Source: an uncultured Bryobacterales bacterium (GTDB lineage Bacteria > Acidobacteriota > Terriglobia > Bryobacterales > UBA6623). From it: 64,000 bases of DNA. The position numbers were made by a program, and so were the translations under genes. This document shows positions 7,744-24,083 of the stretch, piece after piece (positions within the stretch are counted from its first letter, which is position 1; each line of letters begins with the position of its first letter). Below the pieces are notes generated by a model, which had not been told where the DNA came from, did not search any database, and saw only the letters and a program-made list of their open reading frames with translations. The stretch lies in the NCBI GenBank assembly GCA_951813605.1, contig OX638379.1:2428471-2492470 (forward strand), given 5' to 3'.

Positions 7744-8954
7744 TGTGTTACCTCCTGTCTGTGCATGTCTGCAATTCTCTCTGGTTTCGAATAGCCCGCG
7801 AGACGGTGCGCATAAAGCACCAGGCCGGCTGCGCACGCCCAACTTGGGCTTCGCAACGCCGTGGGCAACCCCTCGGGCTGGGCTGGCACGCCGACCCTGG
7901 TCCTGAGGGCCACGACCGATTGCGCCAAATCCTTGATGCCGGGCAGCGCGGCGATATCTCCTGTCACAACAAGCGACTGGGCGCCGCCGCGCATCAGCCC
8001 CTCGTGGCGCAGCTCGTCCTGAGCCAGCTGCATGCATTCCTCAACGCGCAGGGCGATGACCTTGTCCAGCATCTTGCGCGGCCAAGGCCTCCCCAAGTCG
8101 GTCCCGTGCACGGAATCGACGCTCGGGACCAAGACATATGCGGTGGACTGTTCCTCGGCTTGGTCGACGCCTCCGAAATCTGAAATGAGTGAGGAGGCGA
8201 CCGCATGTTCCGTGTTGAAGGCGCGGGCCACGTCGCTGACCAAGTGATCCCGACCGACCGGAATGCCGCTCGCCATGCACTGCGCACCGCGGCGGTACGC
8301 CGTCAAGCTGCTCGCCGACTTCCCGAAATCGAGGTGGGCTACGCCTTGAGCGCACTCCGCCTCGCGCAGCGTGCCATACGCCGCAGCAAAGCCGCCCAAC
8401 ACGGTCTCCTCGACGCTGACGCTCGCTTGATTGACCGACCTCCTGGTTTGATCGTGCTCTTCCCGGTTCACTGCAATGACGCGGACGAACGCTTCGAGCC
8501 GCGCCGCGGGCAGGCCCAGTGGATTCGACACGCCCCCCCGGCCATCGATCGCAAAGTCCAACGGAACCAGCTGGAGGACGGTCGAGTTTCCGCCAAGAAC
8601 GACGTTGGAGGACATCCGAACTGCGGTGCCTATGTCGCTCTCCGCGACGGTCTGTTGACCGGCGGGCAGGGTTGCCACAGAATGCACCAGGCGGCTGGTC
8701 ACACTCGCCCCACCAACACCCACGACCGCTGAGACGACCGTGAAGCCGCCGTCTCGCTCGGCTTCTGAGATGGCCTCGTAAACCGCGTCCGATGTTGTTT
8801 GAAGGTCACGGAGATCGCTGTTGTCCCAGCGGACGGGCGGCATCGCGCCGTGGCTCACATGCCTGAGACGCAAGCCGTCTCCGGCCGCGACCAAGCATCG
8901 CGTTTGCGCGCCGCTCATGTCGAGTCCGACGTACGTGTTGGGTTTGTCCGTCAT
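7740..8954 (-). CDS. ftsA: Cell-division actin-like ATPase FtsA
   Basis: FtsA anchors FtsZ filaments to the membrane and recruits later division proteins. The start at 8954 overlaps the ftsQ stop (ATGA) and has AGAGGA just upstream. It gives 404 residues beginning 'MTDKPNTYVGLDMSGAQTRC', which contains the actin-type phosphate-1 loop. 'GVGGASVTSRLV', 'VAHLDFGKSASSL' (phosphate-2 like) and 'LVVTGDIAALPGI' follow the family order. The C-terminus ('YSKPERIADMHRQ') lacks an obvious strongly amphipathic membrane helix, so membrane targeting may be weak or different. The stop codon overlaps the ftsZ start. Sequence divergence from E. coli is considerable, but position between ftsQ and ftsZ settles the identity. 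Confidence 0.94.
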   Translation of the reverse strand: MTDKPNTYVGLDMSGAQTRCLVAAGDGLRLRHVSHGAMPPVRWDNSDLRDLQTTSDAVYEAISEAERDGGFTVVSAVVGVGGASVTSRLVHSVATLPAGQQTVAESDIGTAVRMSSNVVLGGNSTVLQLVPLDFAIDGRGGVSNPLGLPAARLEAFVRVIAVNREEHDQTRRSVNQASVSVEETVLGGFAAAYGTLREAECAQGVAHLDFGKSASSLTAYRRGAQCMASGIPVGRDHLVSDVARAFNTEHAVASSLISDFGGVDQAEEQSTAYVLVPSVDSVHGTDLGRPWPRKMLDKVIALRVEECMQLAQDELRHEGLMRGGAQSLVVTGDIAALPGIKDLAQSVVALRTRVGVPAQPEGLPTALRSPSWACAAGLVLYAHRLAGYSKPERIADMHRQEVTQ

Positions 8955-9820
8955 CCTCTTTTCCTGCCGTCGTTCGCCGGCTGGACTGCGACCTGTTTCT
9001 CGAATCGCAGGTCGACAGCCTCGACGGGGCCAAACTCCGACTTCCAAGCATCGATGTAGTTGAGGAACACGTCTAGCCTGTGCTGGAAATGCCGGTCCCC
9101 CATCTGGAGCTTGATCATCCGGTTCTGGTGCTTGGTGAGGACCACGGCGTTGCCGGAGTCGGAAACGTCGATTTCGGAGACCCCCTTGGCAAGATCGCGA
9201 CCCTTCGCGCCAAAAACTTCCATCACGGTCTCGAACAAGTTGACCCGACGGCGCCGCTGGTCGATCGGCATCGCCTCGTCGATGCCTGTGATCACGGGAA
9301 GCGAACTATCGCCGCCGGCGCGAAGATCCAGGATCACCCCGTCGGCATCGATCATTCGCACCGCATTCGACACCGGCAGGCGCAGGAACGCCACCGGCTT
9401 GCGCTCGACGACCGTGACCGCGATCGTGCGCGGCCAGACCTTCGCTGCGGTGGCGGTTTTCACCCAAGGAATCGAACGCAGTTCCAGCAAGCGGCCGGAA
9501 ATGTCCACCGCTGCGAGGCTCTGCCCGGAGTCGTCGGCGAATACCTGCCGGATCTCTTCGGGACCGAGGGCGGAAAGGCCCTCGATCCGGAAGCCTCCCT
9601 GCTCCGGATCCACGCGGAAGGGAGCGGTCTGCAGGACTATTGAGAACAGGAGCCAGTACGCTGCACCTAGTACCGCGGCGCTCCCCGCAATGCGTAGCGC
9701 CGTTCTTAGCAAGCTGCGCTTTAGGGGCGGGACCCGTGGGTCCTGCTCCGGCTGTGTGACGCGGAGGCCGGTCGACGACTCGTCGACCGGCGTCTCCTGA
9801 GCGGCCTTCTTGAGTGCCAA
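8951..9820 (-). CDS. ftsQ: Cell-division protein FtsQ
   Basis: FtsQ is a single-pass inner-membrane protein linking cytoplasmic and periplasmic divisome parts. The 289 residues show a cytoplasmic N-terminus, one membrane helix (about 40-62, 'IAGSAAVLGAAYWLLFSIVL'), a POTRA domain ('FRIEGLSALGPEEIRQVF') and the beta domain with 'LRSIPWVKTATAAKVWPRTI', the typical FtsQ core. The start lies two bases after the murC stop and the end overlaps ftsA by four bases, so translation is coupled. No murB or ddl gene separates it from murC, unlike in many Proteobacteria. Confidence 0.94.
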   Translation of the reverse strand: MALKKAAQETPVDESSTGLRVTQPEQDPRVPPLKRSLLRTALRIAGSAAVLGAAYWLLFSIVLQTAPFRVDPEQGGFRIEGLSALGPEEIRQVFADDSGQSLAAVDISGRLLELRSIPWVKTATAAKVWPRTIAVTVVERKPVAFLRLPVSNAVRMIDADGVILDLRAGGDSSLPVITGIDEAMPIDQRRRRVNLFETVMEVFGAKGRDLAKGVSEIDVSDSGNAVVLTKHQNRMIKLQMGDRHFQHRLDVFLNYIDAWKSEFGPVEAVDLRFEKQVAVQPANDGRKRG

Positions 9821-9822
9821 AG

Positions 9823-11283
9823 CTACTTCACCTCCTCCTCAGCCGAAGCGACCCCTATGGATTCGGTGGCCTCGACCGGTTCAACGTCCCCGCGACGAAG
9901 CCGCTCCAAGAGTCCCTCGCCTGCCATCCAGACGTTTCCTGCCCCGAAGGTGATCAGGGCGTCGCCGGGACGCAGGGTGGTCGCCGCCCGTTCGACGGCG
10001 TCCTTCATTGACGGGCAGTAGCTCGCATGCGGGTGACCCGAGCGGACGATCTTCTCCACGAGCCGCGGGCTGCAGACTCCCGGCAGAGCGTCTTCGCCTG
10101 CCGAGTAAATGTCAACGACCCACACTCGATCGCACTCCGCGAAGCAATGCGCGAACTCGTCCTCGAGATCCTTGGTGCGACTGTAGCGGTGGGGCTGGAA
10201 GATCACGTTCACGGAGCGGAAGCCGCACGATGCCGCCGCCGCTAGGGTCGTCCGGATTTCGGTGGGATGGTGCCCGTAATCGTCAATCACCGTCACGCCC
10301 CGCTCCTCGCCGCGCTGCTGGAAGCGCCGATCGACACCCCGGAACTGCTTCAGGCCGGCCCGTATGAGATCGACTGGAATCTCCAGTTCCATGCCGACAA
10401 GCACAGCTGCCATTGCGTTGCGCACCGTGTGCAAGCCAACGCCCCGCACGCTGAAGCGCCCGAGATCCGATCCTCGGTGAATCAGTCGGAAGGAGGCCTT
10501 GCCCTTGGACAGCCGGATCCCGTGGGCTACCAGATCAGCGTCTGGCGAGACCGCGCGCAAGCCGTAGGTGAGGCAGCGCCGCTGGATCGCTCCGGCGATG
10601 CGCTTGACGAGCGGGTCGTCCAAGCAAATGATGGCCGCGCCGTAAAACGGCACGCTGTTGGCGAACTGCTCGAACGCTTTCAGCAGGTTCGAGGAGGAGC
10701 CGTAATGATCCATATGCTCGCGATCGATGTTCGTGATGACACTCACAATCGGGTCGAGGGCTAGGAAGGAACCGTCCGATTCGTCCGCCTCGACGAGCAG
10801 GTAATCGCTCTTGCCCAGCCGGGCGTTGGACCCGATCGAAGCCACGCGACCTCCGATGACAACCGTGGGATCCTTGCGGCCCGCCCCCAAGACCGCGGCG
10901 CAGATCGAGGAGGTAGAGGTCTTCCCGTGGCTGCCTGCGATAGCAATCCCGTACTTGACCCGCATCAGTTCGGCGAGCAGCTCCCCTCGCGAGATCACGG
11001 GCAGCTTGCGCCGTCTCGCTTCCGCGAGCTCCGGATTGTTTCCCGGGATGGCGGAACTGGTGACAACGGCTTCCGGATCTTCCAAGTGCTCCGCCGAGTG
11101 GCCAGCCCAAACTCTCGCACCGAGTTTGCGCAATCTCTTGGTGATTGGGGATTCCCTCAGATCGGAGCCGGTTACCGTATAGCCCAAGGTGAGCAGGATC
11201 TCGGCGATCCCGCTCATCCCGATCCCGCCGATGCCTATAAAGTGGATCCGGCGCTGGCGGAACGCCTCCTTGTTGAAAAGCAT
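9823..11283 (-). CDS. murC: UDP-N-acetylmuramate--L-alanine ligase MurC
   Basis: MurC adds L-Ala to UDP-MurNAc in the cytoplasm, the first peptide step of peptidoglycan precursor synthesis. The 486-residue length is normal. Visible motifs are the N-terminal nucleotide fold 'IGIGGIGMSGIAE' (16-28), the ATP loop GSHGKTS (117-123), the central-domain segment 'YLLVEADESDGSFL' and the C-terminal 'VIDDYGHHPTEI'. It follows murG by two bases and precedes ftsQ by two, inside a continuous minus-strand operon. Confidence 0.97.
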   Translation of the reverse strand: MLFNKEAFRQRRIHFIGIGGIGMSGIAEILLTLGYTVTGSDLRESPITKRLRKLGARVWAGHSAEHLEDPEAVVTSSAIPGNNPELAEARRRKLPVISRGELLAELMRVKYGIAIAGSHGKTSTSSICAAVLGAGRKDPTVVIGGRVASIGSNARLGKSDYLLVEADESDGSFLALDPIVSVITNIDREHMDHYGSSSNLLKAFEQFANSVPFYGAAIICLDDPLVKRIAGAIQRRCLTYGLRAVSPDADLVAHGIRLSKGKASFRLIHRGSDLGRFSVRGVGLHTVRNAMAAVLVGMELEIPVDLIRAGLKQFRGVDRRFQQRGEERGVTVIDDYGHHPTEIRTTLAAAASCGFRSVNVIFQPHRYSRTKDLEDEFAHCFAECDRVWVVDIYSAGEDALPGVCSPRLVEKIVRSGHPHASYCPSMKDAVERAATTLRPGDALITFGAGNVWMAGEGLLERLRRGDVEPVEATESIGVASAEEEVK

Positions 11284-11285
11284 GT

Positions 11286-12389
11286 CTAAACAATCCCTCC
11301 TGCCCGTTCAGCGGCCTCGGCGACGGCGTCGGCGGCGTGTTCGGCCGCTCCCACCGGAGCCAACGGCGCCAGCGCGGTTGCCATTTCCGCGAGCCGCTCG
11401 GGATTCCCGGCGAACCCTTCGATTTCCCTCACCATGCGCTCTCCCGTCCATTCCTTGTCCTCCACTACAACCGCCCCGCCGACCCCGGCCAGCACCGCGC
11501 TGTTGGCGCGCTGGTGATCGTCAGCGGCGTACGGGAATGGGACCAGGACGGCGGGCTTGCACGCGGCGCAGAGCTCGGCCAGAACCGAAGCACCCGCGCG
11601 ACAGATAACCAAGTCGCTCCCCGCGAACAGCTCCGGCATGTTGTCGAAGAAGGCGGCCGAATTCGCGTCAACTCCAAGGTCCCGGTATGCCGAGGCGACC
11701 TGCTCGCGCTCGCGCTCGCCCGTTTGGTGGACCAGCCTGGGTGCCAAGAAGCCCTCCCGGTGCCAGATGCGAGCAGCTTCCACTGCCGCCCGATTGAGAC
11801 GTGCCGCGCCCTGGCTGCCCCCCAGAATCAAGACGGTGAATGGCCCGTTGGCCGGTCTCGGCTCGGTCCGGAAGAAGTCGCTCCGCACCGGCATTCCAGT
11901 CACCTCGCAAGAAGCCGCTCGGAAGAACGACGCGGCCCTTGGATGTCCGAGCAGCGCGCGGCGAGCCGCCGGCGCGGCAAGACGATTCGCCAGGCCTGGC
12001 AGCGCATTGGGCTCGAGAACGACTAGCGGCACCTCCAGCAAGGCGCACGCGGCGACGAGCGGCCCCGCCGCGTAGCCTCCCAGGCTAAGGGCCACTTCCG
12101 GGCCCCGTTCCCGCACCACCTTCACGGCCGCGGCCAGCGCGCACGGGGCGGACAGCAGCGTGGCCAGCCGGCGCCGCAGGGAAACCCTCTTGAGCGATCC
12201 GATGGGAACATGGTGCAGCGCGAATCCGGCTTCCGGCACGAGGCGGTTCTCGAACCCCCGGGCCGTGCCGAGGAAAACGCATTCCCAGCCGCGGGCACGC
12301 AGCGTCTTCGCCACTTCGAGGCCCGGTATCACATGTCCTCCGGTCCCGCCGGCCGCGATCAGGACGCATTTCCTGTCAGAACGATCCAT
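11286..12389 (-). CDS. murG: Undecaprenyldiphospho-muramoylpentapeptide beta-N-acetylglucosaminyltransferase MurG
   Basis: MurG transfers GlcNAc from UDP-GlcNAc to lipid I at the inner face of the membrane, forming lipid II. From the ATG at 12389 it has 367 residues, normal for the family. The GGTGGH loop (14-19) and 'LILGGSQGAARLNRA' of the second Rossmann domain are clear, as is 'VICRAGASVLAELCAACKPAVLVPFPYAADDHQ' split across the UDP-GlcNAc site. Two starts are possible: ATG at 12395 overlaps the ftsW stop, and ATG at 12389 is better spaced from GGAAG. They differ by only two residues. Much longer in-frame starts lie inside ftsW and are unlikely. Confidence 0.95.
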   Translation of the reverse strand: MDRSDRKCVLIAAGGTGGHVIPGLEVAKTLRARGWECVFLGTARGFENRLVPEAGFALHHVPIGSLKRVSLRRRLATLLSAPCALAAAVKVVRERGPEVALSLGGYAAGPLVAACALLEVPLVVLEPNALPGLANRLAAPAARRALLGHPRAASFFRAASCEVTGMPVRSDFFRTEPRPANGPFTVLILGGSQGAARLNRAAVEAARIWHREGFLAPRLVHQTGEREREQVASAYRDLGVDANSAAFFDNMPELFAGSDLVICRAGASVLAELCAACKPAVLVPFPYAADDHQRANSAVLAGVGGAVVVEDKEWTGERMVREIEGFAGNPERLAEMATALAPLAPVGAAEHAADAVAEAAERAGGIV

Positions 12390-12391
12390 GG

Positions 12392-13465
12392 TCATCTTCC
12401 AAACCGGCTGATATTCAGCAGCACTCCCGAGCAGGCGAGCACGGTCATGAGCGAGGTGCCGCCGTAACTGACGAACGGGAGCGGCATGCCCTTCGTGGGG
12501 AGCAACCCGAGGACCACGCCCATGTTCAGCATCGCTTGGCTGACAATCATGACCGTGATGCCTCCGGCTAGGAACACGCCGAATAGGTCGGGCGCCCCTA
12601 CGGCTGCGCGCAGTCCCCTGCGCAAGATCAAGTAGAACGCGATGACGAGCAGCATCGTCCCTAGCAGTCCGAGTTCCTCGCCGACCATTGCGAATATGAA
12701 GTCGGTGTGGGCCTCCGGCAGGAAGTGCATCTTTTGCCTGCCGACCATCCAGCCTTCCCCCAAGAGGCCTCCGGATCCCACGGCGATCTCCGACTGCAAG
12801 ATCTGGAAGCCGCTGCCCAAGGGGTCTTTTTCGGGATGCAGGAACGCCAGCACTCGCTGGCGGCGGTAATCGACGAGCCAAACCGTGAAATAAAGGACGG
12901 GAATCACAGGCACTGCCGCCACCGCTAGGAAGCGGAGCGGCGTTCTTGCCATGTAAAGCATGGAGCCGGCCAGTATTGCCAGACAGGCCGTGGTTCCGAA
13001 ATCCTTGCCGACCAAGATCAGCGCCGCGAGCACGCCGACCACGGCCGCGGGCGGAAGAAGTGTCGCGGCGCGGTTCATTCTGTGCTTGTTGCGCTCTAGG
13101 TAATAGGCGAGAAATAGAATGGTTGCGGGCTTCGCAAGTTCGGAGGGCTGCAGCGACAGCACCCCCAGCCGCAAGAACCGCTGCGTGTTTGCTCCCGTGC
13201 CGAGCGTGGTTGCAACAAGCAGCAAGGTGACGCTTGCGGCCAAGACCGCATAGACGATCTTGGGGTTCCGGAGACGGCGATAGTCCGAGAAGATCAGGCC
13301 GTACATCGCAACGAAGCCGATCGAGGCTGCGACGAGCTGCTTGGCGATGTAGAGAGAGCCTCCATCCGCGGAGGCTGTCGTGCTGTAGACCATCATCAGC
13401 CCGAACAGCGCCAGCGAAAGGATCACCCAGATCAGAACGTGGTCGCAGCGCAACATCAGCGGCAT
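12392..13465 (-). CDS. ftsW: Lipid II polymerase FtsW (SEDS family)
   Basis: FtsW is the septal peptidoglycan glycosyltransferase that works with FtsI. The protein (357 residues from the ATG at 13465) is almost entirely hydrophobic with about ten membrane segments. SEDS hallmarks include 'GANTQRFLRLGVLSLQPSELAKPA' in pieces, 'GKDFGTTACLAIL', 'EAHTDFIFAMVGEELGLLG' and the C-terminal 'LPTKGMPLPFVSYGGTS'. I chose 13465 because it lies one base after the murD stop; the alternative TTG at 13486 would overlap murD. The end overlaps murG. Confidence 0.95.
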   Translation of the reverse strand: MPLMLRCDHVLIWVILSLALFGLMMVYSTTASADGGSLYIAKQLVAASIGFVAMYGLIFSDYRRLRNPKIVYAVLAASVTLLLVATTLGTGANTQRFLRLGVLSLQPSELAKPATILFLAYYLERNKHRMNRAATLLPPAAVVGVLAALILVGKDFGTTACLAILAGSMLYMARTPLRFLAVAAVPVIPVLYFTVWLVDYRRQRVLAFLHPEKDPLGSGFQILQSEIAVGSGGLLGEGWMVGRQKMHFLPEAHTDFIFAMVGEELGLLGTMLLVIAFYLILRRGLRAAVGAPDLFGVFLAGGITVMIVSQAMLNMGVVLGLLPTKGMPLPFVSYGGTSLMTVLACSGVLLNISRFGR

Positions 13466-13466
13466 A

Positions 13467-14804
13467 TCAGGCCCCCAGTTCCCCAACGAGTCGCCGGAAC
13501 TCCCGACCGCGCTCTATGTAGTTGGCGTACTGGTCGAAACTGGCGCAGGCGGGCGCGAGCAGGACCGTGTCGCCGGGCCGGGCGCGCGAGACGGCGTAGC
13601 TCAAGGCCGCGCCGAGAGTCCCGGACTCCACGATCGGGACAGAGCCCCCGAGCTGCTGGCGGATCAGCGTCGCGGCTTCGCCAACCAGCAGCGCCGCGCA
13701 AGCCCGCGAGTGCAGCGTCGCGGCTAAGGGTCCGAAGTCCGAGCCCTTGTCCCGGCCGCCGAGGATCGCCCACAGGCCGGAGCGGAACGAGCCGCAGGCC
13801 TTGACCGCCGCTGCAACATTGGTGGCCTTCGAGTCGTTGAAATAGTCCACTCCGCGCACGTTGGCCACGAATTCCATACGGTGCGGAACTGGTTGGAAGG
13901 TTCGCAGAGCGCGACTAATCACAGAGGGAGCCACGCCGGCCAAGCGGCAGGCGGCGACTGCCACGAGCGCGTTCTCGACATTGTGGACGCCCTTGATGGG
14001 CAGGTCGGACTCCGCGAAATCGACGCCGCGGAAGAGGATCCGACCGTTGGCGGCGCACGCTTCTGCGCAGTCGCGACAGGCCGTGCCAAAGCGCACCACG
14101 GATCCCCGTGCCAGCGGCTCCATTGCCCTGCACGCCGCATCCTCGTCGTTCAGCACTGCGACGTCCCCTGGCTCCTGGTTTCTCAGAATCCTGGCCTTCG
14201 CCGCCGTGTATGCCTCGATAGTGCGATGACGGTCAAGATGGTCCGGCGTCACGTTGAGAACCGCGGCTATGTGGCAACGTAACGACTCGCTCGCCTCGAG
14301 TTGGAAGCTCGAGAGCTCGAGCACATGCCAATCCTCGGCACGCGAATCGTCCACAATTTCGAGAACCGGCGTCCCGACATTGCCTGCCACCTTCCCCGAA
14401 ACGCCTGCCTCGCGCAGCACGTGGTCGATCAGCGAAACGGTCGTGGTCTTGCCATTCGTGCCGGTCACGCCGATCACGCGCCCCCGCAGCTCCCGGGCCG
14501 CGACCTCCAACTCGCCGCAGACGACGATTCCCTGCCGGCGCGCTCGCATCAAGCCCGGCAGGTCCCACGGCACACCCGGCGACGGCACGATGAGATCCTG
14601 CGCCAGGAGCAGTGACTCGGGATGCCCGCCGAAGTGAAGGCGGACCGGCTCATCCGCCAATGCCTCCACCGCGTCTGCCAATTCTTGCCGTGAGCCCGAG
14701 TCCGCCGCCGAGACGACGGCACCGCGCCTCGCGAGGAAGCGCACGGCGGCCAGCCCGGACTTGCCCAGCCCGATGACCAGCGCTCGCTTGCCGTTCAGAT
14801 TCAT
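13467..14804 (-). CDS. murD: UDP-N-acetylmuramoyl-L-alanine--D-glutamate ligase MurD
   Basis: MurD adds D-Glu to UDP-MurNAc-L-Ala. The start at 14804 overlaps the mraY stop (ATGA) and gives 445 residues, the usual length. A dinucleotide-like N-terminal fold starts 'ALVIGLGKSGLAAVRFL', the ATP loop GTNGKTT is at 115-121, 'LNVTPDHLDRH' lies in the central domain and 'YFNDSKATNVAAAVKA' is the conserved C-terminal segment with the catalytic Lys region. Longer in-frame starts fall inside mraY and were rejected. Confidence 0.97.
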   Translation of the reverse strand: MNLNGKRALVIGLGKSGLAAVRFLARRGAVVSAADSGSRQELADAVEALADEPVRLHFGGHPESLLLAQDLIVPSPGVPWDLPGLMRARRQGIVVCGELEVAARELRGRVIGVTGTNGKTTTVSLIDHVLREAGVSGKVAGNVGTPVLEIVDDSRAEDWHVLELSSFQLEASESLRCHIAAVLNVTPDHLDRHRTIEAYTAAKARILRNQEPGDVAVLNDEDAACRAMEPLARGSVVRFGTACRDCAEACAANGRILFRGVDFAESDLPIKGVHNVENALVAVAACRLAGVAPSVISRALRTFQPVPHRMEFVANVRGVDYFNDSKATNVAAAVKACGSFRSGLWAILGGRDKGSDFGPLAATLHSRACAALLVGEAATLIRQQLGGSVPIVESGTLGAALSYAVSRARPGDTVLLAPACASFDQYANYIERGREFRRLVGELGA

Positions 14805-15934
14805 CGCAACTTCAGTGTGCTGATCGCGAACAGCGCCCAGACGAAACCCACGATCCAAAACCGCACGATCACCTTCGACTCCGGCCAGCCCAGCTGCTCG
14901 AAGTGATGGTGAAGCGGGGCCATTCGAAGAACCCGCTTCCCGGTCAGCTGGAAGCTGCCCACTTGGGCAATCACAGAAAGTGCCTCGACCACAAACACCC
15001 CGCCAATGAAGAGCAGCACGACCTCCTGCTTCGCCAGGACTGCCACGGTGCCGATGGTCCCTCCCAAGCTCAGTGCCCCGACGTCGCCCATGAAGATCTG
15101 AGCCGGGTGGGAGTTGTACCAGAGGAATGCGAGGCTGGCACCGACGATGGCCCCGCACAAGACGGTCAACTCTGCCGCCATGGGCACTACCGGGACATCT
15201 AGGTAGGATGCGATCTCGCTATGCCCGGCGATATACACGAGCACCGCGAGGGCGCCTACACAAATGATTGTCAGTCCGATCGCCAAGCCATCCAAGCCGT
15301 CCGTGAGATTCACTGCATTGCTGGAACCAACCAGAACGAAGAAGAGAAAAACAACGAATATCGCGTAGGCGAACGGCAATGTGAGCGGGTTCGCCGCGAG
15401 TGAGTGAATCACAAGATCCGGTCGGATCTCCTTGAGGAACGGAAGGGTCAGCTCGGTCGAATACGAGCCACGGGAGCTCAAGGCTATGAGCATCGAGCCG
15501 ATCAGCAGGGTCATGACGCACTGCAGGCCGAGCTTCTGCCAGCCGCGGAGGCCCAGGTTGCGCTTTCGAGCAACCTTGCTGTAGTCATCCAAGAACCCGA
15601 TCAGACCGAATCCAAGCATCGCCAGCAAGGCAATCCAGATGTAGGGATTGCGCAAGTCGGCCAAGAGCAGCGTCGGAACGATTGCGGAAACGCAGATCAG
15701 GAGCCCTCCCATGGTCGGGGTGCCCGCCTTGCTTTGATGCGATTCCGGCCCTTCCTCGCGAATGTACTGGCCGATCTGCGCCTCCCGAAGCTTTCGAATG
15801 AGCCAGGGCCCGAGCACCAGTCCGATCATGAGCGCGGCAAAGCTCGCGATCGCCGTCCGGACGGTGATGTAGCCGAACACGCGAAGCGGGCTGAAGAGCG
15901 GGTAGAGCTGCTCTATGACGTACTGATAAAGCAT
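14801..15934 (-). CDS. mraY: Phospho-N-acetylmuramoyl-pentapeptide transferase MraY
   Basis: MraY joins UDP-MurNAc-pentapeptide to undecaprenyl phosphate, making lipid I in the inner membrane. The 377 residues form about ten membrane helices. Family motifs are 'HQSKAGTPTMGGLL' (66-79), 'FLDDYSK' with Asp116-Asp117, 'NAVNLTDGLDGLAIG', 'QIFMGDVGALSLGG' and the C-terminal 'APLHHHFEQLGWPE'. It starts five bases after murF and overlaps murD. Confidence 0.98.
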   Translation of the reverse strand: MLYQYVIEQLYPLFSPLRVFGYITVRTAIASFAALMIGLVLGPWLIRKLREAQIGQYIREEGPESHQSKAGTPTMGGLLICVSAIVPTLLLADLRNPYIWIALLAMLGFGLIGFLDDYSKVARKRNLGLRGWQKLGLQCVMTLLIGSMLIALSSRGSYSTELTLPFLKEIRPDLVIHSLAANPLTLPFAYAIFVVFLFFVLVGSSNAVNLTDGLDGLAIGLTIICVGALAVLVYIAGHSEIASYLDVPVVPMAAELTVLCGAIVGASLAFLWYNSHPAQIFMGDVGALSLGGTIGTVAVLAKQEVVLLFIGGVFVVEALSVIAQVGSFQLTGKRVLRMAPLHHHFEQLGWPESKVIVRFWIVGFVWALFAISTLKLR

Positions 15935-15939
15935 GCCGA

Positions 15940-17310
15940 CTAGGTGACTATCCTCTCTTCCGGAAACCGGAGTTCCAGCGCCCTTAGCAAGGGGTCGCGC
16001 ACCCGCTCCAAGCGCACGCCGCGGGACGCCTTCAGCAGCACCGCGTCGCCTGGCCTGACCATGCGCGCCAAAGCTCTTGCAGCCTCCAGCGGGCTCTCGA
16101 AAAACTCGCTTGGGACGCCCGACGCGGAGGCGATCTCGGCGGCGTTGCCGCCAACTGCGACTAGGTAGTCGATCCCCGCGGATGCCGCGACACGACCGAT
16201 CTGTCGATGGAGTTCCCGCGACCGCTCGCCGAGTTCGCGCATCTCCCCGAGCACTGCGATCCGGCGCGATGCGCTGGTTCGACGCAGGACTTGCAGCATG
16301 GCTGTCATCGCGGCCGGGTTGGCGTTGTAGCAGTCATCAATGAGGGTGACGCCGCCAGCCTTGCGCACAACCCCGCGCATCGCAGATGCTTGCAGTCGTC
16401 CCAGCGCGTCCACTAGGCTCCCGGGACGGATCCCCAGAGGGCCGATGGCGGCGATCGCGGCGAGAACGTTGTAAACGTTGTGACGTCCCGGGAGCCGCAT
16501 GGACATGGCGGTGCCGGCTACGCGGAATCGAACTCCGTCGCCCCCCCTGTCTTCGACGCGTTCGGCGCGCACGTCGGCCGGTAGATCGATGCCGAATGTC
16601 ACCGTTCGGCCCTCATGGCGCTCCCGGAAGCTCGACACGCGCCGGTCGTCCGCGTTCAGTACCGCGGTGCCGCCGGCTTTGACAGCCTCGATCAGATAGC
16701 TTTTCTCACAAGCAATCTCGTCCTCTGACGCAAAGTTCCCGACATGCGCCGCACCGACATTCGTGACGACGCCGACATCCGGGGAAGCGATTTCCGCAAG
16801 CGGTTGCATCTCGCCGGGATGATTGATCCCGATTTCGACCACAGCGGCCCGCGCCTCGTCAGGAACTCGCAGCAGAGAGAGGGGCAGCCCGTATTCGTTG
16901 TTCAGGTTCCCTTCCGACTTCGCGACCGGAAGAAAGTCTGCAAGCAGCGTCGCGATCGCATCCTTCGTGGTGGTCTTGCCACTGCTCCCGGTGACAGCAA
17001 TGACTGTCTTGCCCCAATTCCTCCTAGCGTCAGTGGCCAAAGCACGCAGCGCCGCGCCCGTTTCAGGCACCGGGATCAGCGCGGCACCCTCGCGAATCGC
17101 GTACGAATCTTCGACAACCGCGGCGATCGCGCCCCGCTTCAACGCGTCCGGAACAAAGTCGTGCCCGTCGAACCGCGGTCCGCGAATAGCGAAGAACAGA
17201 TCTCCCGGAACGACAGTGCGGGAATCGATCGAGTACCCGCGGGCCTCTCCCTCAAACGTCCCGGCAGGCAGGCCGAGCCAAGCGCGGATCTGGGACAGTT
17301 GCAGAATCAC
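15940..17310 (-). CDS. murF: UDP-N-acetylmuramoyl-tripeptide--D-alanyl-D-alanine ligase MurF
   Basis: MurF attaches D-Ala-D-Ala to the tripeptide precursor. The GTG start at 17310 overlaps the murE stop (GTGA). In 456 residues one sees the N-terminal substrate-binding domain ('SIDSRTVVPGDLFFAIRG'), the ATP loop GSSGKTTTKD (108-117), 'EIGINHPGEMQPLAEI', 'LPGRHNVYNVLAA' and 'LIDDCYNANPAAMTAML'. No ddl gene occurs in the cluster, so D-Ala-D-Ala ligase must be encoded elsewhere. Confidence 0.97.
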   Translation of the reverse strand: MILQLSQIRAWLGLPAGTFEGEARGYSIDSRTVVPGDLFFAIRGPRFDGHDFVPDALKRGAIAAVVEDSYAIREGAALIPVPETGAALRALATDARRNWGKTVIAVTGSSGKTTTKDAIATLLADFLPVAKSEGNLNNEYGLPLSLLRVPDEARAAVVEIGINHPGEMQPLAEIASPDVGVVTNVGAAHVGNFASEDEIACEKSYLIEAVKAGGTAVLNADDRRVSSFRERHEGRTVTFGIDLPADVRAERVEDRGGDGVRFRVAGTAMSMRLPGRHNVYNVLAAIAAIGPLGIRPGSLVDALGRLQASAMRGVVRKAGGVTLIDDCYNANPAAMTAMLQVLRRTSASRRIAVLGEMRELGERSRELHRQIGRVAASAGIDYLVAVGGNAAEIASASGVPSEFFESPLEAARALARMVRPGDAVLLKASRGVRLERVRDPLLRALELRFPEERIVT

Positions 17311-18788
17311 CGCTTTTCGTACCCCATCTCTTCGAGCGCGGCCCGAACGGCGCGCCTGTCGTCGAATGCAACTGTGCCTGCGGCCAGTGCCTGCGTTGTC
17401 TCGTGGCCCTTGCCGGCGATCAGGACGACATCGCCGCGTCGGGCCTCTCTTACGGCGGCGGAGATCGCCGCCGCCCGGTCGGCCTCAATCATCCAAGCGG
17501 CATTGCCGGTGCGCAGCCCGGTCTCCACGTCCGCGATGATGCGCAGCGGATCTTCGCTGCGAGGATTGTCCGACGTCAGGATCGCGAAGTCGCTCAGTTC
17601 GCCGGCCGCGCGGCCCATCGGGGCGCGCTTGGAACGGTCCCGGTCGCCGCCACAGCCGAAGAGAGTGAGTACGCGGCCGGGTGGGCGGCCGCGATTGGCG
17701 ACTGCGCGGGCCGCCTTGATCAGGCGACGCAGCGCGTCCTCGGTATGTGCGTAGTCGACGACGGCAAGGAAGGGCTGGCCCGCGTCCACCGACTCGAAGC
17801 GGCCGGGCACCTGGCGCACGAGCCGCAGGCCGTCCTCGATCTCTCTTGCGTCCAGCCCGTTGCATTGCGCGGTCGCCACGGCCGCGAGGAGATTGTCAAT
17901 GTTAAACTCGCCCACCAGCGGGGTTTCCGCGCGGATCCGGCCGCGCGGGGTCTCCACATCGAACCGCATGCCGCGCTCGTCCAACTCGATGCGGCGCGGG
18001 CGCACGTCCGCGGCTTCCCCTCGACCGTACGACACCGCTTGGGAAAGCCTCAGCCTGAGGAAGCGGCGCCCGGTCGCGTCATCAGCGTTGATTACGGCAA
18101 ATCGTGGCGGCTTGGCCCCTGCCCCTTCAAACAAGCGGCGCTTGGCGGCAGCGTAGCTTTCCATGTCACCGTGATAGTCCAGGTGATCCGGCGTCAGGTT
18201 GGTGAAGACAGCCGTGTGAAAGTCCAGTCCTCGGATGCGTTCCAAGGACAGCGCGTGCGACGAAGCCTCCATTGTGGCGTGCGTACCGCCCATCTCGCGC
18301 AGCTGGGCAAGCATGCGGACAACATCCAGCGACTCCGGTGTCGTGTTGACTGCCTTCTCCGCATGCGGGCCGACACGGTGCTCGATCGTGCCCAGCAGGG
18401 CGGTTGTCTTCCCTGCCGAACGCTGGAGAGCATCGATGACGTGGGCGGTAGTCGTCTTGCCGTTGGTGCCAGTGACCGCCGTGACGCAGAGGTCCCGGTC
18501 GGGCCGCTCGTAGAAGCGGAGGCTCGCTTGGGCCAGCGCCCGGCGGCCGTGCGCGACGCGGGCCCAGCGAGAGCCCAGGCCGGACGGGGCCTCGCTCTCG
18601 CTGACAATGGCGGCGGCCCCGGAGCGCAGGGCCTGGGGCACGAAGGAGTGCCCGTCGACTCGCTCTCCCGGAAATGCGAAGAACACCTCGCCCGGTCGCA
18701 GCATGCGGGAGTCGTACTGCAGACCCTTGGCTTCAATGGCCGGCACCGGTTCCGTGGCACACCCCTCTAGCATGGCGTCCAGCCTCAT
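17307..18788 (-). CDS. murE: UDP-MurNAc-L-Ala-D-Glu--meso-2,6-diaminopimelate ligase MurE
   Basis: MurE adds the third residue of the peptide stem. The ATP loop GTNGKTTT is at 107-114. The key specificity motif DNPR is at 407-410 ('LTSDNPRSEDP'), which marks meso-diaminopimelate enzymes, so the wall is predicted to be DAP-type. 'GKGHETTQ' near the end is also typical. Length is 493 residues. The start overlaps the ftsI stop (ATGA) and the end overlaps murF (GTGA). Confidence 0.97.
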   Translation of the reverse strand: MRLDAMLEGCATEPVPAIEAKGLQYDSRMLRPGEVFFAFPGERVDGHSFVPQALRSGAAAIVSESEAPSGLGSRWARVAHGRRALAQASLRFYERPDRDLCVTAVTGTNGKTTTAHVIDALQRSAGKTTALLGTIEHRVGPHAEKAVNTTPESLDVVRMLAQLREMGGTHATMEASSHALSLERIRGLDFHTAVFTNLTPDHLDYHGDMESYAAAKRRLFEGAGAKPPRFAVINADDATGRRFLRLRLSQAVSYGRGEAADVRPRRIELDERGMRFDVETPRGRIRAETPLVGEFNIDNLLAAVATAQCNGLDAREIEDGLRLVRQVPGRFESVDAGQPFLAVVDYAHTEDALRRLIKAARAVANRGRPPGRVLTLFGCGGDRDRSKRAPMGRAAGELSDFAILTSDNPRSEDPLRIIADVETGLRTGNAAWMIEADRAAAISAAVREARRGDVVLIAGKGHETTQALAAGTVAFDDRRAVRAALEEMGYEKR

Positions 18789-20977
18789 CCCCCACCCGCT
18801 CTCAAGGAACGTGCGGAATCAGCCTGCGCAACCGGCGAGAGCCCGAAGTAGAGGTTCAGAATCTGCCCTTCGGCCAGTGGCTTGTTGGGTTCAGGCGATT
18901 GCTTATGCACCACGCCGCTGCCGTGCGGCTTAACCGTGATTCCAAGCTTGCTGGCGATGGCAAGCGCCTCCCTCATGGTCAGCCCTCGCAATTGAGGAAC
19001 AAATCGGGGCTCGGCGGCGACCCTCTGCGGTGCGGGCCAGGCCGGGCTTGCCGCCGGATTCGTCGCTGCATTCGCCTGAGACTCTACGGACGGCGGAACC
19101 GGCAACGGCCGCTCCGCCACGGCGCCGAATGTGGAATCCTCGGGCCTGTTCAAGACGAAATCGGCAAGGGAACCCTCCGCGAGCCGGGGCCTTTTCCGCT
19201 GCGCCAGTGTTAACGACCGCGACGGCGGGACGTCCAGAAGGCGCAAGGCCTTGCGGAGCACTACCGCGAACAAGGGGGCCGCGATCCTGCCTCCGTAATA
19301 GAACTCCCCGCGCGGGTCGTAGAGCATGGCAACACCGACGAGCTCCGGGTCATTGACCGGAGCGAAGCCGCAAAAGCTCGCAAGGTACGGCCCGTTGGCA
19401 TACGTGCGGGTATTGGGATTGATCATCTGAGCGGTGCCGGTCTTCCCGGCAACCCGATAGCCGGGAATCTTAGCCAGACGGCCTGTACCGGACTCGACGA
19501 CCTGCTCCAGAATCGCCTGCATCGTCGCGGCCGTCTCGGCGCTCACGACCCGAACGCCCGGTTGCCGTTCGAATTCGATCTCGGTACCGTTGCGTGCGAG
19601 GAGGCCCCGGACGACTCGCGGCCTAACCAGCGTCCCTCCGTTAGCGATGGACGCGAACAAACGGGCCATCTGCAGGGCCGTCACCCCCACTTCCTGCCCC
19701 ATGGACAGGGATGCGAGCGAGGAGCCGCTCCAGCGAGCCACCGGCCGGACCAGCCCTGGCACCTCCCCGGGCAACAATATGCCGGTAGCGCTGCCGAATC
19801 CGAATCGGCGGATGTACCGGTGCATGCGGTCGTCGCCGAGCCTTTGACCGATCTTGATGATGCCGACATTGCTGGACTTCACCAATACCTGTGGCATTGT
19901 CAGCATGCCGTAAGGCTGATGGTCGCGAATCCGTCGGCGACCGACCCAAATGCCTCCCATCTCGCAGTCGAACGAGTCCTCGGTCGTGACCTTTCCCTCC
20001 TCCAAGGCCGCCGATGCAGTCAGCACCTTGAATGTGGATCCGGGCTCGACGAGGTGGCTAACGGCAAAATTGCGGAGATTCTCGAGATCGGCCGGCGTCC
20101 GGGACAGGCTGTTGGGATTGAATCGCGGCCAGCTGGACATCGCCAGGACCTCGCCGGTATTGGGTTCCAGCAGCACGAACGTGCCGGCGCGCGATTTCGT
20201 CTCCCGGACCGCTCGGTCCAGTTCCATATGGACCAACTTCTGGAGTTCCAGGTCGAGGTCCAGCACCAAGTCGTCGCCGGGGATGGCGGCTTGGATCACC
20301 TTCCGACCGTAACGCTGCTGGCGCGCGTCGGACTGCAGGACTCCCACGCCCGGCTCTCCGCTGAGCCGGTCCTCGAAGCGCTGTTCTAGACCCGCTTGCC
20401 CGAGATGGTCGAGGCCCACGGTCCCGATCACGTGGGCGGCGACCGCGCTATGCGGATAGTAGCGCTTGCTCTCCGTCTCGAAGTGCAGGATTTCGAGATT
20501 CAAGCCGCGCGCGCGCTCAGCTTCGGCCAAGGTCACGAGCCGCTTCACCCATTGGAACCCGCCGCGCTGCAGGCGCTCCAAGAGCGCTCGCTCGCTCACC
20601 GCGACCGCTTTGGACAGACTCGCGGCCAGCGCCCTGGGGTCCTTGACCCTGTCAGCGAAGACTCCGATCGACTGCGCGGGCGTGCTCAGCGCGAGGTCGC
20701 GTCCGTGACGATCTAGGATCCCGCCGCGCCGGGCGGGTATGTCGACGGTAGCCTCTTGCTGGCGGACGGCCTTTCTCTTCAGGTTGTGAGCTTGGATCAC
20801 CTGTAAATCGAAGAGCCGCATAGCCACGATTGCGAACCAAGCGATCCCGGCGATGCGGAACGAGAGCATGCGGTTGCGCCCGGTCTTGCCGAGCCCGTTG
20901 TTGGAGACCGGCAAGCCCCTGACGGATTTCGCAGGACCCCGCGAGGCCGCTCGCCATGCCTGCTTGAGAATCTTCAT
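18785..20977 (-). CDS. ftsI: Septal peptidoglycan transpeptidase FtsI (PBP3) with C-terminal PASTA domain
   Basis: FtsI cross-links septal peptidoglycan with FtsW. The 730-residue protein has one N-terminal membrane helix (about 38-58), a dimerisation/pedestal domain containing 'PARRGGILDRHGRDLA', and a transpeptidase domain with catalytic STFK (314-317), SSN (368-370) and KTGT (512-515). After a Pro/Ala-rich linker, residues about 655-715 ('FVPQLRGLTMREALAIAS' and following) form a PASTA domain ending 'LNLYFG'. PASTA domains on FtsI are usual in Gram-positives and also seen in Acidobacteria, but absent from E. coli FtsI. It lies 94 bases after ftsL and overlaps murE. Confidence 0.95.
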   Translation of the reverse strand: MKILKQAWRAASRGPAKSVRGLPVSNNGLGKTGRNRMLSFRIAGIAWFAIVAMRLFDLQVIQAHNLKRKAVRQQEATVDIPARRGGILDRHGRDLALSTPAQSIGVFADRVKDPRALAASLSKAVAVSERALLERLQRGGFQWVKRLVTLAEAERARGLNLEILHFETESKRYYPHSAVAAHVIGTVGLDHLGQAGLEQRFEDRLSGEPGVGVLQSDARQQRYGRKVIQAAIPGDDLVLDLDLELQKLVHMELDRAVRETKSRAGTFVLLEPNTGEVLAMSSWPRFNPNSLSRTPADLENLRNFAVSHLVEPGSTFKVLTASAALEEGKVTTEDSFDCEMGGIWVGRRRIRDHQPYGMLTMPQVLVKSSNVGIIKIGQRLGDDRMHRYIRRFGFGSATGILLPGEVPGLVRPVARWSGSSLASLSMGQEVGVTALQMARLFASIANGGTLVRPRVVRGLLARNGTEIEFERQPGVRVVSAETAATMQAILEQVVESGTGRLAKIPGYRVAGKTGTAQMINPNTRTYANGPYLASFCGFAPVNDPELVGVAMLYDPRGEFYYGGRIAAPLFAVVLRKALRLLDVPPSRSLTLAQRKRPRLAEGSLADFVLNRPEDSTFGAVAERPLPVPPSVESQANAATNPAASPAWPAPQRVAAEPRFVPQLRGLTMREALAIASKLGITVKPHGSGVVHKQSPEPNKPLAEGQILNLYFGLSPVAQADSARSLRAGGG

Positions 20978-21071: not shown

Positions 21072-21617
21072 CTATTCCTTCCGGTCGAGCAGCCGCGCCA
21101 CCGCGGTTTCCGGATCCTCTTCAGCAGGCTCCGGCGCAAACCACGTGTACCTGTCTTCCTGGGTCTCCTGCAGCCCGATCTGTTCGGCGAACGAAGCTAC
21201 GCGGGCTAGCTCCTCGAGACGTCCCTTCTGCACTTTCAACTGGTCGCGGACCACGATCAGCTGTTCAATCTTCTCGGACAGCTCGGCCTGGCGGTATCCC
21301 GAGTGCCGCACCCACAAGCGCGGTCCGGACGCCAGCAAGACCGTCAGCACGATAAAAAGGCCCAAGCTGACATGCCAGCGCAATGCATCCCGATCCCGCG
21401 GGTCGTGCCGATAGTTCACGGCACTGTTGTCGATTGTTTTCTGGTACAGCACGGCGCCCTCCATCCCGAGGGACGTTGGTTGTGCCGGCTTCGGAGACGT
21501 GCCTCCTGCGCCGCTGCCTACGGCCTTCCCGAGAACTCGCTCGGGCGTCGGGCCGTGGCGCCAACCGTGTTGTGGTGGCCCTGGCAGCGGCGCATTCGGC
21601 TTAGTGGTCTTCTCCAT
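21072..21617 (-). CDS. ftsL: FtsL-like cell-division protein
   Basis: This is a small bitopic protein between rsmH and ftsI, the standard place of ftsL. It has a Pro/Gly-rich cytoplasmic N-terminus of about 80 residues, longer than in E. coli, one membrane helix ('LGLFIVLTVLLASG'), then a leucine-zipper-like coiled coil ('LSEKIEQLIVVRDQLKVQKGRLEEL' in part) and an acidic tail. FtsL forms a complex with FtsB and FtsQ that activates FtsWI. The ATG at 21617 is the safest start; GTG 21623 and TTG 21626 are in frame. Sequence similarity is weak, so the call rests on topology and position. Confidence 0.82.
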   Translation of the reverse strand: MEKTTKPNAPLPGPPQHGWRHGPTPERVLGKAVGSGAGGTSPKPAQPTSLGMEGAVLYQKTIDNSAVNYRHDPRDRDALRWHVSLGLFIVLTVLLASGPRLWVRHSGYRQAELSEKIEQLIVVRDQLKVQKGRLEELARVASFAEQIGLQETQEDRYTWFAPEPAEEDPETAVARLLDRKE

Positions 21618-21629
21618 GTGCACCAATCC

Positions 21630-22541
21630 TCACTTGATTGGGAACTCCTGCCCGGTCCGGCACGCGGCCCGCAAGCGGGCGCTGCGACTGGGCGGGTTCC
21701 GTTTGACTTCGTCCGCCGAGGGGCGCACCACCCGGCGAGTCAAGAGCTTGTAGATTCCGGCGGCGGCGTGCCGTCGGAAAGAATGCTTCACCATGCGGTC
21801 CTCGCCGCTATGGAAGCTCACCACGACAAAGCGACCTCCGGGGGCGAGCAGCCCCGGCGCGAGCTCCAGAAGCGCGCCCAGCGCTCCCAGCTCGTCGTTC
21901 ACGGCCATGCGCAGGGCCTGGAAGGTCCGCGTGGCAGCATGGATGCGCCGGTGCCCTCTGCGCGGAACTGCCGCGGCAACGATCTGGGCCAGGTGCGTCG
22001 TATCCCGCACGGGGCGTGCTCGCATTACGGCCCGAGCGATCCGGCGGCTGAAGCGCTCGTCCGCGAGCCGAAACAGGAGGTTGGCTAGTTCCCTCTCGCC
22101 GCCCCGGTTCACCAAGTCCGCCGCGCGGAGCTCTTGGCTTCGGTCAAACCGCATGTCTAGCGGTCCCTCGAGCCGGAAGCTGAAGCCCCGCTCTGCATCG
22201 GCCAGTTGCAGCCTCGAGAGCCCTAGATCGGCGACGATCCCGGCGAGCGGGAGGTGCCCGCTCGTGGCGTCTGCGATCTTCGAGAAGCTGCCGTGGAAAT
22301 ACTGCACACGGCCGCGGAACTCGCTGAGTCGCCTGCGGCAGCGGTCCAAGGCGGCCCGGTCGCAGTCAATCGCAATGACGGTGCTTCCAGACGTCCGGCG
22401 AAGGATTCTGCGGGCGTACCCGCCTTCGCCAGCAGTGCAGTCGCAGTAGGCGCCATGACCGGCGCCGCTTGCTTCGCTGAGCAGATAACCTTCCATCTCG
22501 TCCGCCATCACCGAGTAGTGCCCGGTCGCAGCCTCCGTCAC
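21630..22541 (-). CDS. rsmH: 16S rRNA (cytosine(1402)-N4)-methyltransferase RsmH (MraW)
   Basis: RsmH methylates N4 of C1402 in the ribosomal decoding centre. The 303 residues contain 'CTAGEGGYARRIL' (SAM motif I), 'ADLGLSRLQLADAERGFSF', 'LDMRFDRS', 'TFQALRMAVNDEL' and 'FVVVSFHSGEDR'. All match family positions, with Gly replacing the common Leu in SFHSLEDR. The GTG start overlaps the mraZ stop (GTGA). It is second in the dcw operon, as usual. Confidence 0.96.
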   Translation of the reverse strand: MTEAATGHYSVMADEMEGYLLSEASGAGHGAYCDCTAGEGGYARRILRRTSGSTVIAIDCDRAALDRCRRRLSEFRGRVQYFHGSFSKIADATSGHLPLAGIVADLGLSRLQLADAERGFSFRLEGPLDMRFDRSQELRAADLVNRGGERELANLLFRLADERFSRRIARAVMRARPVRDTTHLAQIVAAAVPRRGHRRIHAATRTFQALRMAVNDELGALGALLELAPGLLAPGGRFVVVSFHSGEDRMVKHSFRRHAAAGIYKLLTRRVVRPSADEVKRNPPSRSARLRAACRTGQEFPIK

Positions 22542-22999
22542 AGCCCTAGATCCGCGGCGAGAGCCAAGTCGGACGGGGTGAGCTTGCTAGCCTCGACCTC
22601 GGCGTTGTACCTGGTCTCGCTCATCACGAGCATGTGGTTGGACTGCCACTGAATCTTCACTGCCCCCTTCAGGTCCGACGTCTCCCTGAGACTGGACGGC
22701 ACCAGCAGGCGCCCTTGGCTGTCCACTTTCTCCTCGGCTCCGAAGTGATTCACCATCAGCAAGAAGCTCTTCTTCGTCGTCGCGCTCACGGCTGGCCCCT
22801 GGTCGGTCGGCCTCGAGGAAAGCCCCTCTTCAACCTTTTCCCACTCACGAATCGGGTATACTTTGGCTACGGCCCCGTCCAAGCTGGTAACAAAGACATC
22901 CATCTCTCCGTACCGCTCCATGAGTCGACGCTTCGCAACCACAGGCAGCTTTAGGCGGCCCTTGGTGTCTACGCTCCCTTTCTGCGTGCCGCGAAACAT
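22538..22999 (-). CDS. mraZ: Transcriptional regulator MraZ
   Basis: MraZ is a ring-forming AbrB/SpoVT-fold DNA-binding protein that controls its own operon. From the ATG at 22999 it has 153 residues with two tandem domains: the first contains 'GSVDTKGRLKLPVVAKRRL', the second 'EKVDSQGRLLVPSSLRE'. Each carries the D-x-x-GR-x-x-xP motif used for DNA contact. No strong ribosome-binding site is visible. A longer TTG start at 23041 would run through the operator repeats and is rejected. It heads the dcw cluster, and the repeated pentamers just upstream fit autoregulation. Confidence 0.94.
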   Translation of the reverse strand: MFRGTQKGSVDTKGRLKLPVVAKRRLMERYGEMDVFVTSLDGAVAKVYPIREWEKVEEGLSSRPTDQGPAVSATTKKSFLLMVNHFGAEEKVDSQGRLLVPSSLRETSDLKGAVKIQWQSNHMLVMSETRYNAEVEASKLTPSDLALAADLGL

Positions 23000-23015
23000 C
23001 GTTGCGCTCGTTGCG

Positions 23016-23060
23016 GTCCACTTTGGTCCCTTGCGCCCCAAAATTGACCACTTCTGTCCA
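23016..23060 (-). promoter_or_regulatory. Candidate MraZ operator: five pentamers at exact 10-bp spacing
   Basis: Reading the minus strand towards mraZ, pentamers occur at 23060-23056 (TGGAC), 23050-23046 (TGGTC), 23040-23036 (TGGGG), 23030-23026 (GGGAC) and 23020-23016 (TGGAC). Each is separated by five bases. Known MraZ-binding sites in other bacteria are TGGGN repeats with five-base spacers upstream of mraZ. Here the period is the same but there are five copies with a TGGNN consensus. The last copy ends 16 bases before the start codon. Confidence 0.75.
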
Positions 23061-23064
23061 CATC

Positions 23065-23094
23065 AGTTTGCGGAAGGCGGAAGGGTGCTGTCAA
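23065..23094 (-). promoter_or_regulatory. Possible promoter of the dcw cluster
   Basis: On the minus strand a perfect TTGACA -35 element (23094-23089) is followed after 18 bases by CAAACT (23070-23065), a weak -10 element. Transcription would begin just before or within the MraZ repeat array, which suits repression by MraZ. The region upstream is AT-rich with an A-tract. The -10 element is uncertain. Confidence 0.5.
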
Positions 23095-23324: not shown

Positions 23325-24083
23325 ATGAAGCTCGGACTGGTAACTTACAACGTCGGCCGCGACTGGGGTATCGAAACGATCATCGAAAAGCTGGAGGCGT
23401 CGGGCTTCGAGGCCGTGGAGCTGCGAAGCACCCACCGCCACGGAGTCGAACCGGGCCTGGAAGCCGACAAGGTGGACCAAGTGCGGCGCAGGTTCGAGGC
23501 GAGCCGCGTGCGCCTGCTCAGCCTCGGCTCGGCCTGCGAGTTCCAGTCTCCTGACGCGGACGAGCGGCGCGCCAACGTGCGCGAGACCGCTCGGTTCGTC
23601 GAACTGGCCCACGACCTTGGCTGCTGGGGCGTCAAAGTGCGCCCGAACGGCCTGCCCGAAGGAGTGCCGCGAGATGTCACGGTGCGCCGAATCGGAGAGG
23701 CGCTGCGAGCCTGCGGCGCCCACGCTTCGGGCTACGGAGTCGAGATCTGGGTCGAGGTCCACGGAAGGGGAACGCAGCAGCCGGAGGTCATGCGGGCAAT
23801 CATGGACAGCTGCGGGCACCCCTCGGTCGGGATCTGCTGGAACTCCAATCCGACCGACATACGCGACGGCTCGATCCGGTCAGCGTTCGACCTCCTCAAG
23901 CCGTTCATCCGCAACGTCCATATCCGGGACCTTCCCGACTATCCCCACCGCGAGCTGTTCCGCCTCCTGCAATCCGCCGGGTATGACCGCTACACGCTGG
24001 CGGAGACGGCGCAGAGCTGCGAGCCGGACCGCTACTTGCGCTTCTACGCGGCGCTCTGGCACGAGCTGGCTCGCGAGGGCTGA
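23325..24083 (+). CDS. Sugar phosphate isomerase/epimerase-like TIM-barrel protein
   Basis: The 252 residues resemble the xylose isomerase-like/AP-endonuclease-2 TIM-barrel superfamily: 'MKLGLVTYNVGRDWGIETII', then 'GFEAVELRSTHRHGVEPGL', 'CWGVKVRPNG', 'VEIWVEVHGRG', 'VGICWNSNP', 'IRNVHIRDL' and 'YDRYTLAET' follow the order of metal-binding Glu, His and Asp strands. Such proteins act on sugars, inositols or related polyols, and Acidobacteria and Planctomycetes carry many. No signal peptide is clear. GGGGAGG stands 11 bases before the ATG. It diverges from mraZ and converges on a small membrane protein. Fold likely, substrate unknown. Confidence 0.8.
   Translation: MKLGLVTYNVGRDWGIETIIEKLEASGFEAVELRSTHRHGVEPGLEADKVDQVRRRFEASRVRLLSLGSACEFQSPDADERRANVRETARFVELAHDLGCWGVKVRPNGLPEGVPRDVTVRRIGEALRACGAHASGYGVEIWVEVHGRGTQQPEVMRAIMDSCGHPSVGICWNSNPTDIRDGSIRSAFDLLKPFIRNVHIRDLPDYPHRELFRLLQSAGYDRYTLAETAQSCEPDRYLRFYAALWHELAREG

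Follow-up and report, generated by a model that had tools for sequence, protein, structure and literature searches.

Ahead of the mraZ gene of a dcw cluster, five short boxes follow one another at 10-bp steps, which raises the question of whether they form an operator for MraZ and whether their number sets them apart from known sites of this kind. The locus lies in a window of 64,000 nucleotides, the whole stretch of DNA analysed here, whose nearest named relatives are uncultured Bryobacterales (Acidobacteriota). Read on the minus strand from 23060 to 23016, box 1 (TGGAC, 23056-23060), box 2 (TGGTC, 23046-23050), box 3 (TGGGG, 23036-23040), box 4 (GGGAC, 23026-23030) and box 5 (TGGAC, 23016-23020) follow the bases TGATG and are separated by AGAAG, AATTT, CGCAA and CAAAG; after box 5, CGCAACGAGCGCAACG leads into the ATG of mraZ. 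The array (23016-23060, minus strand) spans 45 bp in total, and 16 bases separate its last box from the ATG at 22999. Hereby, the original prediction, which had named these five boxes at exact 10-bp distances and an array end 16 bases before mraZ, proved correct to the base. Based on sequence, significance and conservation, the array very probably serves as operator for MraZ, the repressor whose gene comes next. Between the array and the start codon (23000-23015) there is no clear Shine-Dalgarno sequence, and in most relatives the leader from array to start codon is longer than the 16 bp found here.

The gene behind the array (22538-22999, minus strand) encodes a protein of 153 amino acids starting with MFRG. 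Its reading frame is also open from a TTG at 23041; the alignment of relatives fixes the start at MFRG. Two domain stretches exceed the gathering score of Pfam PF02381 (E = 7e-12), and the residues V10, D11, K13, R15, D93, G96 and R97 are invariant in the alignment of relatives, in keeping with the conserved D-x-K/x-G-R motifs of the family. The NCBIfam MraZ models match below their cut-offs (54.8 bits versus 98.35 for the equivalog model TIGR00242), yet MraZ is the best family and the gene order is that of a dcw cluster; the protein is therefore classified, from these matches, as a divergent MraZ. A single-sequence search found no relatives of this MraZ in the PDB, and a profile search did find them. 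A monomer model built from three sequences is of low confidence (pLDDT 56), with MraZ structures as its nearest folds. Downstream, on the same strand, follow rsmH (mraW; open frame 21630-22541, searched from 22499; Methyltransf_5, E = 2e-82, and TIGR00006 above cut-off), a small ftsL-like gene without family match (21072-21626), an ftsI-type penicillin-binding protein with PASTA domain identified by family matches (18785-20977) and, within 6367-18788, murE, murF, mraY, murD, ftsW, murG, murC, ftsQ, ftsA and ftsZ. Judged by this order, mraZ-rsmH-ftsL-ftsI-murE-murF-mraY-murD-ftsW-murG-murC-ftsQ-ftsA-ftsZ, all on one strand, the array stands at the head of a dcw cluster that is complete from mraZ to ftsZ, in which ftsL and ftsQ are assigned by position only.

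The relaxed five-box pattern KGG(N7 KGG)x4, counted on both strands, occurs once in the window, compared to a chance expectation of 0.01 (mean of 100 dinucleotide shuffles) or 0.007 (base composition) per window, and six times in the 6.19-Mb genome. A 10-bp unit profile was derived exclusively from upstream regions of other genomes, with both the present sequence and that of E. coli K-12 kept out of the training set. Scored with this profile (A A A G T G G N C N; consensus AAAGTGGNC), the array reaches z = 7.3 over dinucleotide shuffles. The repeat unit is about AAAGTGGNC rather than TGGNN plus five arbitrary bases: of the originally proposed TGGNN boxes with five-base spacers the 10-bp spacing holds, and the spacers are not free, as they tend towards AAAG before TGG across the phylum. 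The boxes differ in strength. Boxes 1, 2 and 5 are strong, with profile scores of 8.9, 10.3 and 11.7, in contrast to the weak boxes 3 and 4 (3.6 and 2.5); a count of five equal copies therefore overstates the site, which may function as a site of three to four boxes. Box 3 is repeatedly weak in the genus as well, where it is weaker than box 2. As a general rule a weak central box was rejected: phylum-wide, box 3 scores below box 2 in no more than 17 of the 32 arrays with four boxes, and below its neighbours in no more than 8 of the 13 with five.

The phylum survey comprised 107 non-redundant Acidobacteriota regions upstream of mraZ (loci L001-L125); most of the phylum sampled scores high on the unit profile. 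In these regions, TGG pairs on the coding strand occur 166 times at a distance of 10 bp, where neighbouring spacings average 9.4, as well as 104 times at 20 bp, 55 times at 30 bp and 31 times at 40 bp (about 12 at neighbouring spacings), and no periodic series is found on the opposite strand. At 50 bp or more there is no excess of TGG pairs in the 107 regions (9 at 50 bp versus 10.6 at neighbouring spacings), which points to five boxes as the maximum per array. Under a simple rule, which demands at least three perfect TGG and at least two of the three bases in each unit, arrays of three, four or five boxes result, with shuffled regions giving 0.2 per 109; under the profile rule three boxes are present in 26 regions, four in 32, five in 13 and more in none. 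Persistence of the 10-bp repeat in close relatives had been named as a check in the original prediction, and the period does persist, with the array conserved in the family. The emphasis on five copies as a special feature could not be upheld: by the profile rule six of the ten non-redundant family members carry five boxes, as do some genomes elsewhere in the phylum, and two of the five boxes here are the weak ones. Five boxes are, as far as these counts reach, a family trait and stand at the top of the range usual for such arrays. Hence, what stands of the proposed MraZ-type array is an operator of MraZ type before mraZ and the dcw genes with a 10-bp period shared by relatives, without distinction by copy number. 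The survey supplies copy-number statistics for such arrays, and the upper limit of five is a simple quantity that any structural model of a DNA-bound MraZ ring should account for.

With respect to the promoter, TTGAC precedes the array in 18 of 18 family genomes, the present one included. Here it belongs to TTGACA (23089-23094, minus strand), a predicted -35 element 34 bp ahead of the first TGG; the distance from TTGAC to the first TGG is likewise 34 bp in 14 of the 18 genomes, 32, 33 and 35 bp in three and 43 bp in one. After an 18-bp spacer follows CAAACT (23065-23070, minus strand), a weak predicted -10 element placed by the alignment of relatives, and poorer than the GATAAT, CATAAT or CAGAAT that genus relatives carry at this position. 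A generic promoter scan found no promoter at the locus. Because the first box stands at a fixed 34 bp from the -35 hexamer in 14 of 18 genomes, we infer that the array begins at about +1 of a predicted start site and would cover the first turns of transcribed DNA. The distance from array to start codon varies from about 16 to 66 bp, with 16 bp here and in one other locus (L003); as the distance to the promoter is fixed and that to the gene variable, it appears to be the promoter, and not the start codon, that sets the position of the array. The predicted dcw promoter lies inside a gap of 325 bp that separates the start codon of mraZ from that of a divergent gene (23325-24083), which encodes a xylose-isomerase-like TIM barrel protein (PF01261).

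In E. coli and M. genitalium, MraZ acts through boxes ahead of mraZ to repress the cluster to which it belongs (PMC8475190). The MraZ site of Mollicutes has been given as (AAAGTGKN3)3 (Fisunov et al. 2016, as cited in PMC5282649); its AAAGTGG-type unit and 10-bp period are also found here, and our unit consensus is equal to the unit of that formula, whereas the Mollicutes core site has three units in AT-rich genomes and the present array five boxes. MraZ of B. cenocepacia binds a fragment with four 10-bp-spaced repeats of seven bases plus three-base spacers; they overlap the start site and, as in E. coli, lie downstream of the -10 element (PMC7761207). This PmraBc promoter resembles the present one in its 10-bp period and its place at the head of the dcw operon, and differs in having four repeats instead of five; for the present array, an overlap with the start site is predicted. 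MraZ boxes in the E. coli dcw promoter go back to Eraso et al. 2014, as cited in PMC8475190 and PMC7761207. The mraZ leader of E. coli K-12 (L065) fits the same unit profile (z = 6.2) with the units TGGGA, TGGGG, TGGGA and GGGGT. In both, 10-bp-spaced boxes precede mraZ, downstream of the -10 element in E. coli and of the predicted one in our case, but E. coli shows three clear boxes with a TGGG core, compared to five in the present array, of which two are weak; the boxes here are mostly of the form TGG[A/T]C. Finally, according to their PDB entries, cryo-EM structures show M. genitalium MraZ on its own promoter and on a 4-box promoter (9r4j, 9sz7; PDB 2026); the protein is homologous and the box arrays are of one kind. 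As far as these entries show, the promoter contains four boxes, and the M. genitalium MraZ is about 20% identical to the MraZ described here by comparison with its low-confidence model. Thus, the predicted operator agrees with the known MraZ scheme in its unit and period as well as in its location and the genes around it, and it seems to depart from it only slightly, in box number and TGG[A/T]C flavour.

Taken together, the AAAG-TGG unit, the 10-bp period, the conservation and the place before mraZ argue for an MraZ autorepression operator of known kind. Hereby, the promoter (TTGACA, 18 bp, weak -10) would fire at about the first box, so that the boxes would span roughly +1 to +45. MraZ, as a ring-forming oligomer with AbrB-like halves, would contact box after box along the same face of the helix, one every 10 bp, and in its bound state would block open-complex formation or promoter escape, resulting in negative feedback on mraZ and the downstream dcw genes. 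The sequence shows the array with its conservation and its fixed distance to the -35 element, the mraZ gene and the dcw cluster; start site, MraZ binding and repression in this organism are inferred. Against the operator reading count the divergence of MraZ, the weakness of two of the five boxes and the poor -10 element. The array, being shared with relatives and following a scheme already known elsewhere, is a real but ordinary finding; with it, an autorepression switch already known for the division and cell-wall cluster would reach into Acidobacteriota.

It had originally been suggested that five boxes are held by an MraZ assembly larger or more cooperative than the known complexes on three to four boxes. 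Five units do exceed the threshold here and in several relatives, TGG pairs are enriched at 40 bp, and the array spans 45 bp; two boxes are nevertheless weak, a count of five is widespread in the family, and no array clearly surpasses it, in line with a limit set by a ring of fixed size. A larger assembly is thus not favoured and appears unlikely. Somewhat less probable still is that MraZ engages the family operator, in which two strong boxes and a strong last one flank one or two degenerate boxes in the centre, in a mode not observed with the 4-box promoter; for instance, a ring might touch both ends and skip the middle, or two MraZ particles might bind.

Other explanations were also weighed. 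Since the boxes lie within the predicted 5' leader, which folds moderately well (z = -1.5), the array could act as RNA, with a leader structure controlling translation or attenuation of mraZ; however, 14 of 200 shuffles fold equally well, which is not significant, and a 10-bp period fixed to the promoter at changing distance from the start codon fits DNA binding better than a leader RNA whose position is set by the start codon, so that this explanation is very improbable. Even less credit is given to a G-quadruplex, for which the five G-tracts on one strand and a quadruplex reported downstream of the S. aureus mraZ promoter (PMC11796246) could be invoked: the tracts are mostly GG only with loops of about 7-8 bases, conservation tracks T-G-G at exact 10-bp steps and AAAG and not G-tract length, and in many relatives boxes read TAG or TGT. 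As to functionless chance repeats, the relaxed pattern does occur at five other places in the genome, but all of these lie within long open frames (269-1014 codons) and the array is conserved in relatives across the phylum, whereby a chance origin is excluded as far as sequence can do so.

Beyond the operator itself, a wider MraZ regulon was considered and rejected, as a pattern search of the genome placed strong-box pairs at three other places, all within long open frames. Among 198 Acidobacteriota genomes, 17 have no MraZ match (G069, G096, G147, G155 and others), including all nine sampled genomes of genus g66 and all three of genus g97; some lineages of the phylum may have lost MraZ. Two further genomes each contain neighbouring MraZ-like matches in different open frames, G024:C1:40815-41888 (L070) and G081:C51:57216-58288 (L035), which are possible mraZ duplicates.
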